The translations under genes were made by a program, and so were the position numbers. From Acidipila sp. (lineage in GTDB: Bacteria; Acidobacteriota; Terriglobia; Acidiferrales; UBA7541), in contig JAAFGT010000019.1 of the NCBI GenBank assembly GCA_010365215.1, positions 1 through 64,000 of the forward strand: a stretch of DNA of 64,000 nt, given 5' to 3'. This document shows, piece after piece, positions 53,575 through 62,087 of this stretch (position 1 is its first letter; every line of letters starts with the position of its first letter). The notes beneath the pieces were generated by a model. The model was not told where the DNA came from. It did not search any database and saw nothing but the letters and a program-made list of their open reading frames with translations.

Positions 53575-56500
53575 TTAATCGGCAGGCGCCGGTGCGGCCG
53601 CCGCTGGTTCCGCGTGCTCGCTAAATCCTTCCTCAACTCCGCTCAGGTAGTAATGCACGATGGGCGTAATAATCAGCGAGAGCACCATGGAGATCAGGAT
53701 TCCGCCGATCACGGCGATCGCCAGCGGCTGCAACATCTGCGAGCCGGCGCCCCAGGCGAAGGCCAGCGGCAGCATTCCCGCCACCGTGGCCATTGCGGTC
53801 ATGACGATAGGCCGCAGCCGGCGGCGCCCCGCCTGCATCATGGCTTCTTCACGCGAGTAACCCAGCTTCCTGAATTTCTGCTCGGCATCCAGAAGCAAAA
53901 TTCCGTTCTTGGCCACGATTCCGATGACCATGATCACGCCCATAAATGAAGAGATGTTGAAGGTGATTCCGGTGATCAACAGCGACAAAAATACTCCGGA
54001 GATCGAAAGCAGCGCCGAGGAAAGAATGGCCAGTGGCGCCGCGAACGTGCCGAACTCGAAAAGCAACACGAGAAATACCAGGATCACCGCCAGGATCAGC
54101 ACCAGCATCAGGTCGTGGAACGAGCGCTGCTGCTCCTGGTACGTACCGCCGTACACCACGCGAATGCTGGGAGGCAGGTGCAGGGCGTCCACCGCATCCT
54201 GCACCTTCTTGATGCCGGTGCCGAGATCCACTCCTTCGAGCCGCGCGGTCACCGCGACGGAGCGCTGCAAATTTTCCCGGCGAATCTCGTTCTGTCCGGG
54301 CACTTCGGTGATGGTAGAGAGCGCACCGAGCGTCGCCGTCTTGCCCGTGGAGCTCACCATTACGGTGTTGGACATGGCATCGAGCGAGGCGCGATTGGCC
54401 TGGGGATATCGCACACGAATGGTATAGGCGCGTTCGTTCGCCACCAGCGGCGTCGTCGCCGGCTCGCCTTCGAGGATGGCCACTGTGTTGGTAGCGATTT
54501 CCTCCGGCGTGAATCCCGAGCGCGCCGCCACCACGGGGTCGACGTTAAAGACCACGGCCGGACCGCTGATGGTGTTCTCGATCCCGTTCAGCACGTCCAC
54601 TACGCCGGGAATTTTCTTGATGGAATCGGCCACGCGCGTAGCCGTACTCTCCAGCACCGCCGGGTCCGTGGCAAACAGCTTGATCTGCACCGGCTCGGGC
54701 GCGCTGGTTAGGTCGCCAATCATGTCCTGCAGCAGCTGGATGAACTCCTTATCCACCTGTGGTTCCTGCTTGCTGATCTCCACGCGCAGGTCGGCCACCA
54801 CATCGTCCACGCTGCGTTTGCGCTTGGCCTTCAACTTCACGGAGATGTCGCCGGTATTCGCTTCCGTCACTGCCGCCAGCCCGAGCTGCATCCCGGTGCG
54901 CCGCGAAGTGCTTTCGACTTCCGGCACTTCGTGGATTATTTTTTCCAGGTGGCCCACCACCCGGTCGGTTTCTTCGAGCGAACTGCCCGCCGGCATGATG
55001 TAGTCCAGGATGAAGCCGCCCTCATCCATCGCCGGGAGCAGATCCGAGCCCGTATTGCGATAGCAGGCATAGGCGATGACGATCAGCGCCAGGCTGATCA
55101 AGAGGAGCCACACCGGCCCGGCCAGCGCGCGCCGCAACCAGCGCTCGTAAAACGTCACGATGCGTCCAAAGAAACCTTGCATCTGGCGGTCTTCCGCTTC
55201 CAGCAGGCGCTTGGTGTGTTCCTCCTCGGTCAATTTTTCCCGGGAGGCTTCCGCCGTCTTGGCGCTGTCGGTGGTTTCACGCAGAAAATACTGGCTGAGC
55301 GCGGGTGTCCAGGTAAGCGCCAAAGCCAGCGAAGTAAACAGGGCTACGCTCATGGTGATGGCCAGCGCCCCGAAAAACGTTCCGGTCACGCCGGTAATCG
55401 AGATGAGCGGGAGAAAAACCACGACCGGCGTGATGGTCGAACCGATCAGCGGCTTTGTGATTTCTTTCAGCGCGCTGCGCACCGCCTCGTGGCGGTTCAA
55501 CCCGGAATCGCGATGCAGGACGATGTTCTCCACCACCACGATGGCGTCATCGATCACCAGCCCCACGGCCGCGGCAAGCCCGCCGAGGGTCATGAGATTG
55601 AAACTCTGGCCCATGAGCCGCAGCGCAATACACGTGACGAGAATGGTTACCGGAATCACCAGACCGGCGACGATCGACGTGCCCCAATCGCGCAGGAACA
55701 GCACCAGGATAATGGAAGCCAGGATTAACCCGATCAGAATCGCGTCGCGCACGCTACTGATGGAATCGCCGACGATGATCGACTGATCGTAAAACGGGGT
55801 CAGAACCACGCCCGCGGGCAACGTCTTCTGGATCAGGGTTATTTCCTGGTGCACATCGCGCGCCACCTGCATGGTGCTGCTGTCCGGTTGCCGGTTGATA
55901 TTCAGCAGCACCGCCGGCTTCCCGTTAGCGGTGACAATCGTGTACACCGGGCGCACTCCCGGCGCTACTTCCGCCACGTCGCCGATGCGCACCGGCACAC
56001 CCGCCAGCGTGTTCTTGATCACCACGCCGGCGATCTGCTCCGGGCTGCGCAACTGCGCGCTCACCAGGCCCAGGAAGAGCTGGTGGTTGCGCGCCAGAAG
56101 CCCCGGTGAATCGATAATATTTGTGCGCCGCACCGCCTCGAGGAGGTCCGGCACGGTTACGCTGGTGGCCAGAAGCCGCGCGGAATCGGGCGAAATGTGG
56201 AACTCCGGCTCTTGCCCGCCCTGAATCACCACGGTGGAAACGCCATTCAGGCGATTCAAGCGCGGCTTGAGCTCATAAGTGGCAAGTTCCCAAAGCTGCG
56301 TCTGCGGCACCGTGTCCGAGGTGAGGCTATATCCCAGGATGGGAAAGCTGGCGAAGGTCAGACGGTTGGTCATGATCCTCGCGCCCGGCGGCAAAACCGC
56401 TCCCACGCGAACCAGCGTAGCGTTCACGCGCTCCAGCGTCTGGAACATATCCACGTTCCAATCGAAGTAGAGGTCAATCTCCGCCGAGCCGCGGCTGGTG

Positions 56501-56754
56501 ATGGAGCGTACCTGCTGCAAGCCCTGCACGCTGTTGACGGCTTCCTCGATAGGCCGAGTGATGGTGACCATCATCTGATCGATCGGCATGACGCCGTTAT
56601 CGATGGCGATGACGATGCGCGGGAAGTTCGTGGTCGGAAACACAGCGATGGGAATGGTGAATGCCAGATAGACGCCCACCAGGGCCAGCACCAGAATCAG
56701 GAAAATGATGGGCCGGGAGTGCTGGGAAATGCCGGACGAAGATGGTGGCGTCAC
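53575..56754 (-). CDS. RND family multidrug efflux pump (HAE1/AcrB type)
   Basis: The inner-membrane pump of a tripartite exporter, driven by protons. The 1059-residue product has twelve membrane segments in the usual 1+5/1+5 order, two large periplasmic loops, and the TM4 motif GGLAAAVGLVIDDAIVVVENI with the conserved aspartates. ITGVTGTFFGALAITMSVALF and the C-terminal FMGVIMVIGIVAKNGILLLD also match. Substrate residues are not decisive; hydrophobic drugs are the likely cargo. It is last in tolC-adaptor-pump order, 51 bases after the adaptor. Confidence 0.95.
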   Translation of the reverse strand: MTPPSSSGISQHSRPIIFLILVLALVGVYLAFTIPIAVFPTTNFPRIVIAIDNGVMPIDQMMVTITRPIEEAVNSVQGLQQVRSITSRGSAEIDLYFDWNVDMFQTLERVNATLVRVGAVLPPGARIMTNRLTFASFPILGYSLTSDTVPQTQLWELATYELKPRLNRLNGVSTVVIQGGQEPEFHISPDSARLLATSVTVPDLLEAVRRTNIIDSPGLLARNHQLFLGLVSAQLRSPEQIAGVVIKNTLAGVPVRIGDVAEVAPGVRPVYTIVTANGKPAVLLNINRQPDSSTMQVARDVHQEITLIQKTLPAGVVLTPFYDQSIIVGDSISSVRDAILIGLILASIILVLFLRDWGTSIVAGLVIPVTILVTCIALRLMGQSFNLMTLGGLAAAVGLVIDDAIVVVENIVLHRDSGLNRHEAVRSALKEITKPLIGSTITPVVVFLPLISITGVTGTFFGALAITMSVALFTSLALALTWTPALSQYFLRETTDSAKTAEASREKLTEEEHTKRLLEAEDRQMQGFFGRIVTFYERWLRRALAGPVWLLLISLALIVIAYACYRNTGSDLLPAMDEGGFILDYIMPAGSSLEETDRVVGHLEKIIHEVPEVESTSRRTGMQLGLAAVTEANTGDISVKLKAKRKRSVDDVVADLRVEISKQEPQVDKEFIQLLQDMIGDLTSAPEPVQIKLFATDPAVLESTATRVADSIKKIPGVVDVLNGIENTISGPAVVFNVDPVVAARSGFTPEEIATNTVAILEGEPATTPLVANERAYTIRVRYPQANRASLDAMSNTVMVSSTGKTATLGALSTITEVPGQNEIRRENLQRSVAVTARLEGVDLGTGIKKVQDAVDALHLPPSIRVVYGGTYQEQQRSFHDLMLVLILAVILVFLVLLFEFGTFAAPLAILSSALLSISGVFLSLLITGITFNISSFMGVIMVIGIVAKNGILLLDAEQKFRKLGYSREEAMMQAGRRRLRPIVMTAMATVAGMLPLAFAWGAGSQMLQPLAIAVIGGILISMVLSLIITPIVHYYLSGVEEGFSEHAEPAAAAPAPAD

Positions 56755-56805: not shown

Positions 56806-58182
56806 CTAAGGCTCATCTTTCTTCTCTTTTGTCTCGCCCGGTTTCGGCGGCTCGACCACCTGGATCTTGGTCTTGTCGGCTAGTCCGAACGCACCCACGG
56901 TTACCACGCGCTCGCCCGCCTTGACCCCTTCCACAATCTGCACCTTTTCGCCCTCGCGGATGCCAACTTTTACCGGACGCTGCTCCGCGTGTTGCTCCCC
57001 TTTCTCCTCGACAGCGATCATCACCGTGCTGGCGCCGTCCGTGCCGGTGAGCAGTGCAGCGGCGGGGATGACGATGGCATCGCCAACCGTTTGCGCCAGC
57101 ATGTTCACGGTTACGCTCGAGCCCGCTTTCAGTTTCTGCCCGGCATTTTTCGTCTGAATCCACACTTCCACTGTGGTGCTGTTGGGGTCCAGCGCCGGAC
57201 TCACCAGCGTGACTTTCCCGGGAATGGCTTCGGTCTCTCCGGGCACGGTCAGCGTGGCTTGCGCGCCCACTTTGAGGCGCGCCGCTTCCGTCTGCGCGAT
57301 GTGCGTTTTGGCGATCACTTGCGAGAGGTCCATCACCGTCATCAGCGGCGTGCCTGCCGCGGCCATTTCTCCGGGAAACAGCGGCCGGTCGGTGACCACT
57401 CCGTTGATGGGGCTGCGGATTTCCGAATAACTCTTCTGCGCTTGCGCGCCGAGATATTTGCCCTTGGCCTGGCCGAGCTGCGCCTGAGCCGATTTCAACG
57501 CTTCCTGCTTGCCGAAGCTCTGCACCGCCTTCAGGTGTCTATCCGCCAATTCGTACTGGTTGCGCGCCTGCGTCAGCGCTACCGCGGCTACGTCTAATTC
57601 CTTGCGTGGCAGCGCGCCCTGCTCCAGCAGGGACTTCCGGCTGTCATAGACCTTTTGCTGCGCGTCGAGCATCTGCTTGGCGATCTGGCGATCCTGCTCG
57701 GCCTTCTGTGTATCTTCGGGCAGGCTCATCCCCGTGCTGGTCTTGTAAGCTGCTTCCGCCTGATCGTACATCCCGCGGTTTTCGATCTCCGAGGCGATCA
57801 GATCGCTGTTCTCCAGTTCCGCCAGCAACTGGCCCTGCTTCACCGGGTCTCCCCGCTTCACGTAGAACTTTTTCACGGGAGCGCTGATCTTGGGCACCAG
57901 AGCCGCCTGGTTCAGCGGGAAAACAACCGCCTGCGCGGTGACCATTTCGTGAATGGGCTGCACGGCCGCGGCTTCCAGTTGCACGCTGACCACCGGCTCG
58001 ACCTCGGCGACTTTCTTGGTGCAGCCCGCCACGAGCAGGCAAAGCGCAGCGATTCCGGCCGCGGTTGCAGTGGCCGTTTTGGATATTGCGTCGGGCGAGA
58101 AGAAATTTCGCGTCCACACTCTTCTCTCTGCCTGGTAGTCTTTTTTATTGCCAGCTGGGTTTTTGGGCACGTCTACTCTCAT
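56806..58182 (-). CDS. RND periplasmic adaptor lipoprotein
   Basis: The 458-residue product bridges the pump and TolC. A lipobox (LLVAGCTKK, Cys54) indicates lipid anchoring. It has the biotinyl-lipoyl halves (AVVFPLNQAALVPKISAPVK, IRSPINGVVTDRPLFPG), a helical hairpin of about 110 residues, a beta-barrel (KVGAQATLTVPGETEAIPGK), and a membrane-proximal domain. The ATG at 58182 is four bases from the tolC stop and has AAGAGG immediately before it, an unusual zero spacing. The first 25 or so residues are unusually polar, so a later start is possible. Confidence 0.92.
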   Translation of the reverse strand: MRVDVPKNPAGNKKDYQAERRVWTRNFFSPDAISKTATATAAGIAALCLLVAGCTKKVAEVEPVVSVQLEAAAVQPIHEMVTAQAVVFPLNQAALVPKISAPVKKFYVKRGDPVKQGQLLAELENSDLIASEIENRGMYDQAEAAYKTSTGMSLPEDTQKAEQDRQIAKQMLDAQQKVYDSRKSLLEQGALPRKELDVAAVALTQARNQYELADRHLKAVQSFGKQEALKSAQAQLGQAKGKYLGAQAQKSYSEIRSPINGVVTDRPLFPGEMAAAGTPLMTVMDLSQVIAKTHIAQTEAARLKVGAQATLTVPGETEAIPGKVTLVSPALDPNSTTVEVWIQTKNAGQKLKAGSSVTVNMLAQTVGDAIVIPAAALLTGTDGASTVMIAVEEKGEQHAEQRPVKVGIREGEKVQIVEGVKAGERVVTVGAFGLADKTKIQVVEPPKPGETKEKKDEP

Positions 58183-58186
58183 CCTC

Positions 58187-59713
58187 TTAAAAGTTTCCTG
58201 TCAGCGTTTTCAGATTGGCTAGCGCTACACGATACCGCACCAGGGCGTCATCATAGGCATTGCGCGTCTCGACCAGCAGGTTTTGCGCGTCTACCACGTC
58301 TGTCACCGAGACCTCAGCGGCCTGGTAGCGCAAGAGGGACAACCGGAGATTCTCAGTGGCCAGCTGCGCCGCCCTGGCCAGCATCACCAGCTCGGCGCGC
58401 ACCGCGTCGGCCTCATGATAAAAACTTTGCAAGTCGCTCAGCAGCAGCCGTTGCGCATACGTCAGTTCCGTGCGCGCTTGCTCCCTGCGCAAGCTGGCCT
58501 GGCGGACTTTACTTTGTGTGGCTCCCCAGTTCCAGATGGGAAGCAGCAGCGTCGCTGTCGTCGAATATCCCAGCAGCGGTAGTCCGTTGCTATCGCGCGT
58601 GGCAAAGCGATTGGCATCGATTCCGTAGGCATAGTCCACCGATACAGTCGGCAGATAACCGGTCCACGCGCTAAACACTTCGCGCTTCGCCGCCTCCAGC
58701 GTGGACACGGCAACTGCCAGTGCGGGATTTTTGCGCATTCCCATCGCCTGCACTTCCGCGTAGGTGGGCAGCGCGTCAGCAGCTTGTGAATCGTCTACCA
58801 CGGTAAAGTTCAAATTGAAATTAGGAAACAGCAATACCGCCAGCCCCAGGCGCGCGCGTTCCATATCTAATTCAGAGTCCCGCAGCGCCTTCCGTTTTTG
58901 CTCGTACTGAATATCCGCTTTGATGGCGTCGGAGTGCGCCACTTCCCCGCCCTGTTCCAGCTTATTGGTCAGATCGAGAAAGCTCTGGGTATCGCGCACG
59001 CCTCCCTGCGCGGTCGCGTATTTGCGCTGTGCCGCCACCATCCCGTAGTAGGCCGACGCAACTGTGACCACCAGCCCGCGTTGGGCAATCACCGAACGCG
59101 CCTGCGCCACCGCTTCGATCGCGGCAGTGCGCCGGTAGTCGGCGAACCTGGCGGGGTCCAGGATCGGCGTATGCACCAACCCCTGAGCGATATATTCGTG
59201 CACGCCGTTGTTGGGCAGGAACCGGCCTGTGGGCGATCCGTTGCCCTGCGTATAGATGTACTGCGTATTGAAGGCTACGGAAGGGAGCAGTGCCGATCGC
59301 GCCTGCACGTGATCTTCGTGGGCCACGCCCAGGTCGGTAAACGCCGCCTGGAAGAACGGAGAATTCTTTTTCGCGCGCTCCAATGCGTCCGCGAGGGTGA
59401 GCGTCAGTGGCGCTCCGGTTCCGATGGCTTGCGCGTAGGACGAGGGTAGAGCATCAGGTGCCTCTGGGAGCGTGCTGAAAGGTTGCGCGTTTTCCAGCGG
59501 TGGTGGTTGCGGCGGAGCCGGCGCAGTAACCGGCGGCGCTGTGGTCTGCGCTGCCGCAGGCAGGGTTATCACTCCCATCGTCAGCGTCATCATCAGGGCC
59601 GCAGTCAGGCAAAACGCCCCGGCCGCTAGCGGCGAAACTCGATACTTTTTCCTCGCGTTAATGTTCGGGATAGTCATGCTGTTCACGCTAGTCGTCTTCA
59701 TCATGTTCATCAT
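58187..59713 (-). CDS. TolC-family outer-membrane efflux channel
   Basis: The 508-residue product has a signal peptide (cut near ITLPAAAQTT) after a start with four ATGs (MMNMMK), a proline-rich linker, and two OEP repeats. These have paired coiled-coil helices and strands: LTLADALERAKKNSPFFQAA, VQARSALLPSVAFNTQY, EVSVTDVVDAQNLLVETRN. Export of the pump's cargo is likely. AAGGA lies nine bases before the first ATG. It opens the efflux operon and is divergent from the two-component genes. Confidence 0.94.
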   Translation of the reverse strand: MMNMMKTTSVNSMTIPNINARKKYRVSPLAAGAFCLTAALMMTLTMGVITLPAAAQTTAPPVTAPAPPQPPPLENAQPFSTLPEAPDALPSSYAQAIGTGAPLTLTLADALERAKKNSPFFQAAFTDLGVAHEDHVQARSALLPSVAFNTQYIYTQGNGSPTGRFLPNNGVHEYIAQGLVHTPILDPARFADYRRTAAIEAVAQARSVIAQRGLVVTVASAYYGMVAAQRKYATAQGGVRDTQSFLDLTNKLEQGGEVAHSDAIKADIQYEQKRKALRDSELDMERARLGLAVLLFPNFNLNFTVVDDSQAADALPTYAEVQAMGMRKNPALAVAVSTLEAAKREVFSAWTGYLPTVSVDYAYGIDANRFATRDSNGLPLLGYSTTATLLLPIWNWGATQSKVRQASLRREQARTELTYAQRLLLSDLQSFYHEADAVRAELVMLARAAQLATENLRLSLLRYQAAEVSVTDVVDAQNLLVETRNAYDDALVRYRVALANLKTLTGNF

Positions 59714-59791
59714 GGCGGGTAATCCTTATTGGTTTTCCTGCGGGAATGAAGGTATCGCAGGTGGACGACATGTTCAACCTATGGGGAATCT

Positions 59792-59818
59792 ATGAAGATT
59801 GGCTGAAACCAGGATAAA
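59792..59818 (-). promoter_or_regulatory. Candidate response-regulator operator of the efflux operon
   Basis: On the minus strand, TTTAT, TTCAG and TTCAT occur at exact 11-bp spacing (59818-59814, 59807-59803, 59796-59792), about 80 bases before the tolC start. This is the spacing of OmpR/PhoB-family tandem half-sites. Confidence 0.55.
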
Positions 59819-59825
59819 ATTGCCT

Positions 59826-59884
59826 TCAGAGTGGCTGCGGGCCGCGCCGCTTGGCTCGTGGGGCGTGGCCCGCAGCCACTCTGA
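59826..59884. repeat. 18-bp perfect inverted repeat between the divergent operons
   Basis: Arms TCAGAGTGGCTGCGGGCC (59826-59843) and its exact complement (59867-59884) enclose 23 bases that can pair further. It lies between the two 11-bp-spaced operator candidates. Confidence 0.85.
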
Positions 59885-59891
59885 ACACAGT

Positions 59892-59918
59892 TTCATTTCG
59901 GCTTCATGCCGCCTTCAT
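59892..59918 (+). promoter_or_regulatory. Candidate response-regulator operator of the two-component operon
   Basis: Three perfect TTCAT half-sites at exact 11-bp spacing (59892-59896, 59903-59907, 59914-59918), 28 bases upstream of the regulator start. It mirrors the degenerate set at 59792-59818 and suggests autoregulation. Confidence 0.65.
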
Positions 59919-59946
59919 TTCCCGCGGCGAGTATGATGAAGGGACC

Positions 59947-60627
59947 ATGCGTATTCTGCTGATTGAGGACGAATCCAAGGTATCGGATTTCGTCGCTCGT
60001 GGTCTCTCGGACGAACGTTACGCGGTAGACACCGCGCGGGACGGCAAGAGCGGCCTCGAATTCAGCACCACCTACCAGTACGACCTGATCATTCTTGACC
60101 TGATGCTCCCCAAAATCAGCGGCGCCGACGTGCTGCGGCAGATTCGCCGCAAGAACACCACCGTGCCCGTCCTGGTGTTAACTGCGCGCGACAGCATTCA
60201 GGACAAAGTAGGCATCTTCGAAGCTGGCGCGGACGATTACCTCACCAAGCCTTTCGCTTTTGCCGAGCTGCTGGTGCGCGTCAAAGCCCTGCTGCGCCGC
60301 GGCCCGGTCAATCGCGCCAGCACCATCCGCGTCGACGATCTCGAGCTGGACCGCCTTTCGCAGCAGGTCAAGCGCGCCGCCAAGCGCGTGGAGCTCACTT
60401 CCAAGGAATACTCCCTGCTGGAGTATCTGATGTGCAACGCCGGGCGCGTGCTCTCCCGCACTATGATCATCGAGCACGTGTGGGATCAGAGTTTCGACGG
60501 CATCACCAACATCGTCGACGTCTACGTGCGCCATCTGCGCACCAAGATCGACGAAGGCCATGAGCGCAAATTGATTCGCACCGTGCGCGGCGTGGGATAT
60601 TCCATCAGCGATGGAAGTGAAACGTGA
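59947..60627 (+). CDS. OmpR-family response regulator
   Basis: The 226-residue product starts MRILLIEDESKVSDF, with the acidic pocket E8-D9 and the phosphorylation site in DLIILDLMLPKISGADVL (D51). It also has conserved T and K (VLVLTARDS, DYLTKPFAF), and a winged-helix output domain (RVELTSKEYSLLEYLMCNAG, then VDVYVRHLRTKID and IRTVRGVGYSI). Start ATG 59947 is chosen because the receiver begins there; the frame is open upstream. It overlaps the sensor kinase by four bases. Control of the divergent efflux operon is inferred from the shared TTCAT repeats. Confidence 0.95.
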   Translation: MRILLIEDESKVSDFVARGLSDERYAVDTARDGKSGLEFSTTYQYDLIILDLMLPKISGADVLRQIRRKNTTVPVLVLTARDSIQDKVGIFEAGADDYLTKPFAFAELLVRVKALLRRGPVNRASTIRVDDLELDRLSQQVKRAAKRVELTSKEYSLLEYLMCNAGRVLSRTMIIEHVWDQSFDGITNIVDVYVRHLRTKIDEGHERKLIRTVRGVGYSISDGSET

Positions 60628-62087
60628 ACACTCATTCGCTACGCTTCCGTATGACCGCCTGGTACGCCGGACTGCTGGCCGGTTTTTTGTTGCTCTTCGG
60701 TCTTGCCGTCTACCTGGGGCTCAAGCACTATCTCGATTCCGGCCTCAGGAATTCGCTTTCCCAGCAGACCCGCTCCATCGCCGAAAAACTGCTGGTCGAT
60801 GTCGACCACCGGGGCGAGAAGCACGTCGCGGACGAGGCCAGCGAGAACTACTCCCCGGAGATCAACGGCCGTTTTCTGCGCATCACCCGCGCGGACTCCA
60901 GCACCCTGTATCAATCCAGCCAGCCTCGCGACGGCAGTTTCGACGCCACGCGCGTTCCCATCCTTCGCGGCCCGGTCAAGCAGGAATTTTTCCGCGACGA
61001 ATTTGTCGGCGGTCACCGTCTGCTGTTCCACACGTTTCCCTACACCACGCCGGAGGGCAGAGCATTCTGGATCGAGGCGGGCGCGCCCTACCATCCGGTA
61101 GCCGAGCTGCTGGATGACCTGCTGATTATTCTGGCCTTCGGCACGCCGCTGATCATTGCCGGCGCCATCGCCGGTGGCTACTGGCTGATGCGCCGCGCGC
61201 TGCAGCCCGTGGACGACATTACCCAGCAGGCCGAGCGCATCACTTCCCGCAATCTCAGCGAGCGGCTATCCGTGGCCGCCACGGGTGATGAGATCGAGCG
61301 CCTCTCGATTGCGCTGAATCGCATGATCGGCCGCCTGGACGATGCGTTCCAGCACATCAACCGTTTCTCCGCCGACGTTTCCCACGAGCTGCGCACCCCG
61401 CTCACCATTTTGCGCGGTGAGCTCGAGTCCATCGCCCAGCGGCGTCTGCCCCCGGAAATGCTGGAGATGATCGGAAGCGCGCTGGAGGAAACCGAGCGCC
61501 TGGCCAAAATCGTCGATCACCTGCTGACCATCTCCCGCCTGGATGCCGGGGAATCGCGTACATTAAAAATTCGCCTCGACCTTGGGCAGTTGGCCATTTC
61601 CACCGCCGATCAGATGCGCCTGCTCGCCGAAGAGAAGTCTATTTCGCTGGTCTACGAGGTGGCCGAAGGCGTGGAAGTCGAAGGCGATCCCGCTCGGTTA
61701 CGCCAGGTCATCGCCAATCTGGTCGACAACGCCATCAAGTACACGGCGAAAAACGGCCAGGTGAAGCTGCATGTGGCAGCTTCGGGCGGCAAGGGCATCC
61801 TGGAAATTGTCGACAATGGAGTGGGCATTTCAGCAGAAGCTCTGCCCAACATCTTCGAGCGCTTCTACCGCGCGGATCTGGCGCGCACGCGCTATTCCAG
61901 CGGCGCGGGCCTCGGCCTCTCCATCGTGAAGGCCATCTGCACGGCTCACGACGCTGAGATCAAAGTATTCAGCACCGAAGGAGAAGGCAGCCGATTCCGC
62001 GTCGAACTGCCTTTGGCCTCGAGCCTCTCTCTCAACGAGTCACGTGCAAACTCCCCGCGCGCCGCAGTTTCCAATCCGGCTCAGTAG
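60624..62087 (+). CDS. Sensor histidine kinase
   Basis: The 487-residue product has two membrane segments (about 13-32 and 168-190) enclosing a periplasmic sensor of about 135 residues, a HAMP linker (RALQPVDDITQQAERITSRN), a HisKA domain with the phosphorylated histidine in FSADVSHELRTPLTILRGEL, and a HATPase domain (NLVDNAIKYTA, EIVDNGVGISAE, SSGAGLGLSIVKAIC). It starts at the GTG at 60624, overlapping the regulator stop. The signal sensed is unknown; an envelope or drug signal fits the efflux neighbourhood. Confidence 0.95.
   Translation: MNTHSLRFRMTAWYAGLLAGFLLLFGLAVYLGLKHYLDSGLRNSLSQQTRSIAEKLLVDVDHRGEKHVADEASENYSPEINGRFLRITRADSSTLYQSSQPRDGSFDATRVPILRGPVKQEFFRDEFVGGHRLLFHTFPYTTPEGRAFWIEAGAPYHPVAELLDDLLIILAFGTPLIIAGAIAGGYWLMRRALQPVDDITQQAERITSRNLSERLSVAATGDEIERLSIALNRMIGRLDDAFQHINRFSADVSHELRTPLTILRGELESIAQRRLPPEMLEMIGSALEETERLAKIVDHLLTISRLDAGESRTLKIRLDLGQLAISTADQMRLLAEEKSISLVYEVAEGVEVEGDPARLRQVIANLVDNAIKYTAKNGQVKLHVAASGGKGILEIVDNGVGISAEALPNIFERFYRADLARTRYSSGAGLGLSIVKAICTAHDAEIKVFSTEGEGSRFRVELPLASSLSLNESRANSPRAAVSNPAQ

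Follow-up and report, generated by a model that had tools for sequence, protein, structure and literature searches.

Pho boxes, the targets of PhoB, are tandem repeats with TCAT-like ends whose half-sites recur at 11-bp steps. For AgrR of Cupriavidus metallidurans, the box has been mapped experimentally: its 16-bp core consists of two inverted half-sites of 6 bp separated by 4 bp, some operators have further direct half-sites in phase, the box lies in a class II position, and the system shows autoregulation and divergent resistance operons (PMC7380067). The cop boxes of CopR (Pseudomonas syringae) and PcoR (E. coli pRJ1004) likewise have an inverted repeat in a 16-bp stretch (PMC7380067). In E. 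coli, unphosphorylated CusR binds the cusR/cusC spacer and has been reported to repress cusCFBA when no inducer is present (PMC8249747).

The locus studied here lies in a 64-kb window, the whole stretch of 64,000 nucleotides that was analysed, and resembles E. coli CusR/CusS-cusCFBA (PMC8249747) in that a response regulator-kinase operon diverges from a TolC-type/adaptor/RND operon and that the spacer between the two carries the regulator site, predicted in the present case (Table 1). Unlike in CusR/CusS, the spacer holds two separate back-to-back operators. We conclude that positions 59792-59918 very probably comprise two outward-facing operators of the response regulator encoded from 59947, which would activate both its own operon and the divergent pump operon. 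We infer binding by this regulator, and activation rather than repression, from known OmpR-family regulators.

Table 1. Features of the divergent efflux and two-component locus (positions in the window)
Feature	Position	Strand	Basis or remark
RND inner-membrane permease	53575-56754	-	ACR_tran PF00873, 721 bits
RND periplasmic adaptor	56806-58182	-	TIGR01730, above cut-off
TolC-type outer membrane channel	58187-59713	-	OEP PF02321; first gene of divergent efflux operon
Putative -10 of tolC promoter, TAGGTT	59776-59781	-	weak candidate; 10 nt past last half-site
tolC-side operator (44-bp motif, putative)	59792-59835	-	33.5 bits, matrix from 79 relatives without the window
tolC-side half-sites CTGAAG, TTTTAT, TTTCAG, CTTCAT	59824-59829, 59814-59819, 59803-59808, 59792-59797	-	
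GC-rich near-perfect hairpin	59825-59888		-61.6 kcal/mol, z -9; arm ends include both inverted half-sites
RR-side operator (44-bp motif, putative)	59875-59918	+	32.2 bits, matrix from 79 relatives without the window
RR-side half-sites CTGAAC (inverted), TTTCAT, CTTCAT, CTTCAT	59881-59886, 59891-59896, 59902-59907, 59913-59918	+	
Putative -10 of response regulator (RR) promoter, TATGAT	59932-59937	+	13 nt past last half-site; read from the sequence
OmpR/PhoB-type RR, predicted ligand of both operators	59947-60627	+	PF00072 101 bits, PF00486 96 bits, above cut-offs
Sensor histidine kinase	60624-62087	+	HAMP, HisKA, HATPase_c; overlaps end of RR gene

The response regulator carries the receiver and winged-helix (Trans_reg_C) domains of the OmpR/PhoB family. 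Its best NCBIfam model is that of the heavy-metal regulators CztR/SilR/CopR, TIGR01387, with 262 bits against a cut-off of 279.2; the kinase falls just under the cut-off of TIGR01386 (274.3 against 292.55 bits). The response regulator fails the model for CusR (PRK09836, 240 against 420). The closest solved DNA-binding domain is that of PcoR (2jzy), whose recognition helix reads NVIDVAVRRLRSKI where the response regulator has NIVDVYVRHLRTKI. This helix (NIVDVYVRHLR) is nearly invariant among relatives and mostly different among paralogues.

The first-pass annotation had reported three perfect TTCAT boxes at 11-bp steps before the response regulator gene, and they are indeed present on the forward strand, starting at 59892, 59903 and 59914, far above chance expectation: the pair TTCAT-N6-TTCAT was observed twice in the 64 kb, both times within 59792-59918, against 0.08 expected from the shuffled window. 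On the reverse strand, 59792-59818 reads TTTAT-N6-TTCAG-N6-TTCAT, two mismatches from the triplet. On the inner side of each set we detected an extra half-site in the opposite orientation, in register with the 11-bp array (CTGAAC and CTGAAG; Table 1). The perfect triplet occurs only twice in the whole 4.1-Mb genome, and the second occurrence straddles the start of a gene unrelated to the regulator and pump system. Searching the genome for the triplet, as had been proposed for finding further targets, mostly returned chance sites (a sortase-like gene start, a DedA-like gene upstream region and a CinA-like gene start). Since most of these places are unrelated, the triplet by itself serves poorly as a motif.

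De novo motif finding on the 120 bp upstream of relatives' response regulator genes, with the window left out of both the search and the resulting matrix, identified one strong 44-bp motif, TTCTGAAcGaaTTTTAATcttgcgTTCatggcggtTTAAT. Its core is [A/C]TGAA[C/T]-N4-TTTNAT, a 6-4-6 pair of inverted half-sites as in CopR/PcoR/AgrR-type operators, followed by two in-phase half-sites at 11-bp steps. Box 1 resembles the other boxes better as its reverse complement (r 0.70) than directly (r 0.41), and in 137 sites the pattern.TTNA. was matched by 96% of reverse-complemented box 1, 99% of box 2, 71% of box 3 and 79% of box 4. The orientation of box 1 and this fit together define the core as two 6-bp half-sites in inverted orientation, 4 bp apart, followed by two direct half-sites. 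The inverted pair is best conserved, boxes 3 and 4 being weaker direct additions. Thus the direct 11-bp repeats proposed as the binding motif were retained as boxes 2-4, but box 1 is inverted, so that the array is not a PhoB/OmpR-style tandem repeat in a single orientation; the operator is longer, and its core is the inverted pair of boxes 1 and 2.

In its 6-4-6 core, in-phase direct half-sites, promoter position, putative autoregulation and divergent operons, the predicted binding site is like the AgrR box. It differs in the half-site, which is ATTACA there and [A/C]TGAA[C/T] here (TTCA on the other strand), and in that a pair of additional direct half-sites downstream is usual here, extra ones being present at some operators there. 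The inverted repeat within 16 bp is likewise shared with CopR and PcoR, with different half-site letters. With PhoB the system shares the fold and the 11-bp steps, whereas the core here includes an inverted half-site. The CopR/AgrR-style layout is thus maintained in several phyla although the half-site is another one. Searches of open-licence papers turned up neither the letters of the motif nor an acidobacterial operator of comparable type, and no mapped operator of such kind for Acidobacteriota and Verrucomicrobiota, both abundant soil phyla. The type of switch is known; the operator sequence and the larger set of genes seem not to have been described. They provide a specific, testable motif and a list of predicted targets for an efflux-linked two-component system in the two phyla.

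When the window was scanned with the matrix from the 79 relatives, the third-best place after the two operators reached 8.8 bits, and 30 Markov-simulated windows gave maxima of 3-19 bits. A matrix built from 37 non-acidobacterial sites scored the tolC side at 22.8 and the response regulator side at 16.7, the next best place in the window at 0.1. The set before tolC had been described as a degenerate counterpart with the opposite orientation and the same step. Orientation and step were confirmed, but the site is not degenerate: by its score in Table 1 the tolC-side copy is as good a site as its partner. When the two copies are compared, 21/24 box positions but 5/15 spacer positions are identical, which points to selection on the boxes and therefore to two selected sites rather than a simple inverted duplication of DNA.

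The interval 59792-59918 is also exactly one 127-bp imperfect palindrome (90/127 positions self-complementary) with a very stable inner hairpin. The TTCAT repeats might then be by-products of this palindrome, which would be a terminator, a repeat element or a hairpin with a structural role and would have TTCAT-like words in its arms by chance. However, the boxes are conserved without the hairpin, which was present neither in the equivalent gaps of relatives nor, by BLAST-type searches, elsewhere in this genome or in 60 related genomes; the agreement of boxes but not spacers also argues against such an origin. Rfam matches were limited to eukaryotic miRNA and snoRNA models well below gathering scores, of a type that any long hairpin can match. 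We regard this explanation as extremely unlikely and already largely refuted. If 59825-59888 were extruded as a cruciform, box 1 would be blocked in both operators.

The 79 response regulator loci came from one scan; their regulators share 68-85% identity with that of the window, and they belong to Acidobacteriota, Verrucomicrobiota and MAGs labelled Proteobacteria. A site lies directly upstream of the regulator gene in 68/79 loci, in divergent position in 25/79 and just past the kinase gene in 11/79, counts that are not independent, since the relatives share ancestry. At least one copy was found in 77/79 loci; the first-pass annotation had staked its reading on the repeats recurring in orthologous loci, and they do. 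Eleven of the 79, including the closest relative (L012, 85%), carry no copy directly upstream of the regulator gene, so autoregulation is not universal.

The motif follows the regulator. Orthologues at 68% identity (L092) and at 78% over a fragment (L119) are accompanied by sites of 42.9 and 35.4 bits, and response regulator paralogues of ≤56% identity in related genomes by no such site (maximum 13 bits). Among 299 genomes of the class, the regulator is encoded in 12 at E ≤ 1e-84, and G035 adds a thirteenth with a fragment at 78% identity. The strict motif is present in 8/13 genomes with the regulator and in 3/286 without it (Fisher p 1.4e-10), and the reversed-pattern control gave 0 matches in the 299 genomes. 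The three genomes with the strict motif and no close orthologue count against assigning the operator to this regulator; they represent a single genus, which has its own similar site. In that genus (g57; L139, L140 and L141) the strict motif is conserved (e.g., TGAATCCGATTTAATGGTGCGTTCACAGCGGGTTAAT). A receiver-like protein is encoded divergently in L140 and L141.

These observations bear on the idea that the sites are those of a different OmpR-family regulator, PhoB for instance, which would control both the response regulator and the pump. Such a regulator is suggested by the likeness to Pho boxes (11-bp tandem repeats with TCAT-like ends), and the response regulator itself matches many OmpR-family models. 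The co-occurrence of the motif with the regulator orthologue across the class and its absence beside other response regulator genes argue otherwise, and the response regulator is not itself a PhoB, reaching only 199.1 bits against the cut-off of 296.2 for TIGR02154. Control by another regulator is thus very unlikely.

If the response regulator is indeed the ligand of both operators, the partner kinase would phosphorylate it and a dimer would occupy the inverted pair, with further molecules on the two promoter-proximal half-sites. The last half-site overlaps the presumptive -35 region, where the bound regulator could recruit RNA polymerase (class II activation). One copy would then drive the regulator-kinase operon, giving positive autoregulation, and the other the divergent tolC-adaptor-RND operon. 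The earlier proposal that the regulator controls both itself and the RND pump is accordingly strengthened, at the level of sequence comparison, by the 68/79 arrays upstream of regulator genes and by operators before TolC/RND operons elsewhere. Against shared control speaks the weak -10 of the tolC promoter.

The same regulator might instead bind both sites to repress the pump and its own expression, and be released on phosphorylation, for which E. coli CusR offers a precedent (PMC8249747). The geometry points the other way: -10-like hexamers in the relatives cluster 10-13 nt downstream of the last box, and the last half-site covers the -35 region, as in the class II activation reported for AgrR (PMC7380067). 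We consider repression unlikely. If TATGAT is the -10 element of the regulator promoter, the transcript would begin only ~1-3 nt before the ATG (window positions 59932-59949) and be leaderless or nearly so. A similar spacing is seen in some relatives, e.g., L016.

Other genes with the same operator offer a handle on the purpose of the pump. The operator precedes TolC genes in L015, L017, L018, L020, L022 and L030. In Verrucomicrobiota and the proteobacterial MAGs, the usual order is regulator-kinase-adaptor-RND in one direction behind one operator. Extra operators in the acidobacterial relatives precede genes for YncE-like propeller proteins (17 loci), amidohydrolases (11), TonB-receptor-like proteins (8), TolC operons (6), MmgE/PrpD-like proteins (4) and a few transporters, names other than Amidohydro_1 and TolC having been assigned by reading the sequences rather than by family search.

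In the genome of the window itself, scanned with IUPAC patterns rather than the matrix, the strict motif was found only at the two intergenic sites. A third site with two mismatches (L123 1501-1537; G000:C38:13905-13941) precedes an Amidohydro_1 gene, of the type found behind operators in 11 relatives, and itself follows a TonB-receptor-like gene. Because control patterns at up to three mismatches gave five matches, this site is weak evidence alone. We tentatively suggest, as a possibility somewhat short of even, that the operator marks an undescribed cross-phylum two-component regulon, probably spread horizontally, which in Acidobacteriota couples the RND pump to a YncE-like propeller, a secreted-type amidohydrolase, TonB-dependent receptors and an MmgE/PrpD-like enzyme. 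If true, such a regulon would point to a small organic compound that is sensed, taken up, degraded and exported, rather than to a metal. In L012, a divergent operator lies at -214 and another 5 kb downstream, near an MmgE/PrpD-like gene.
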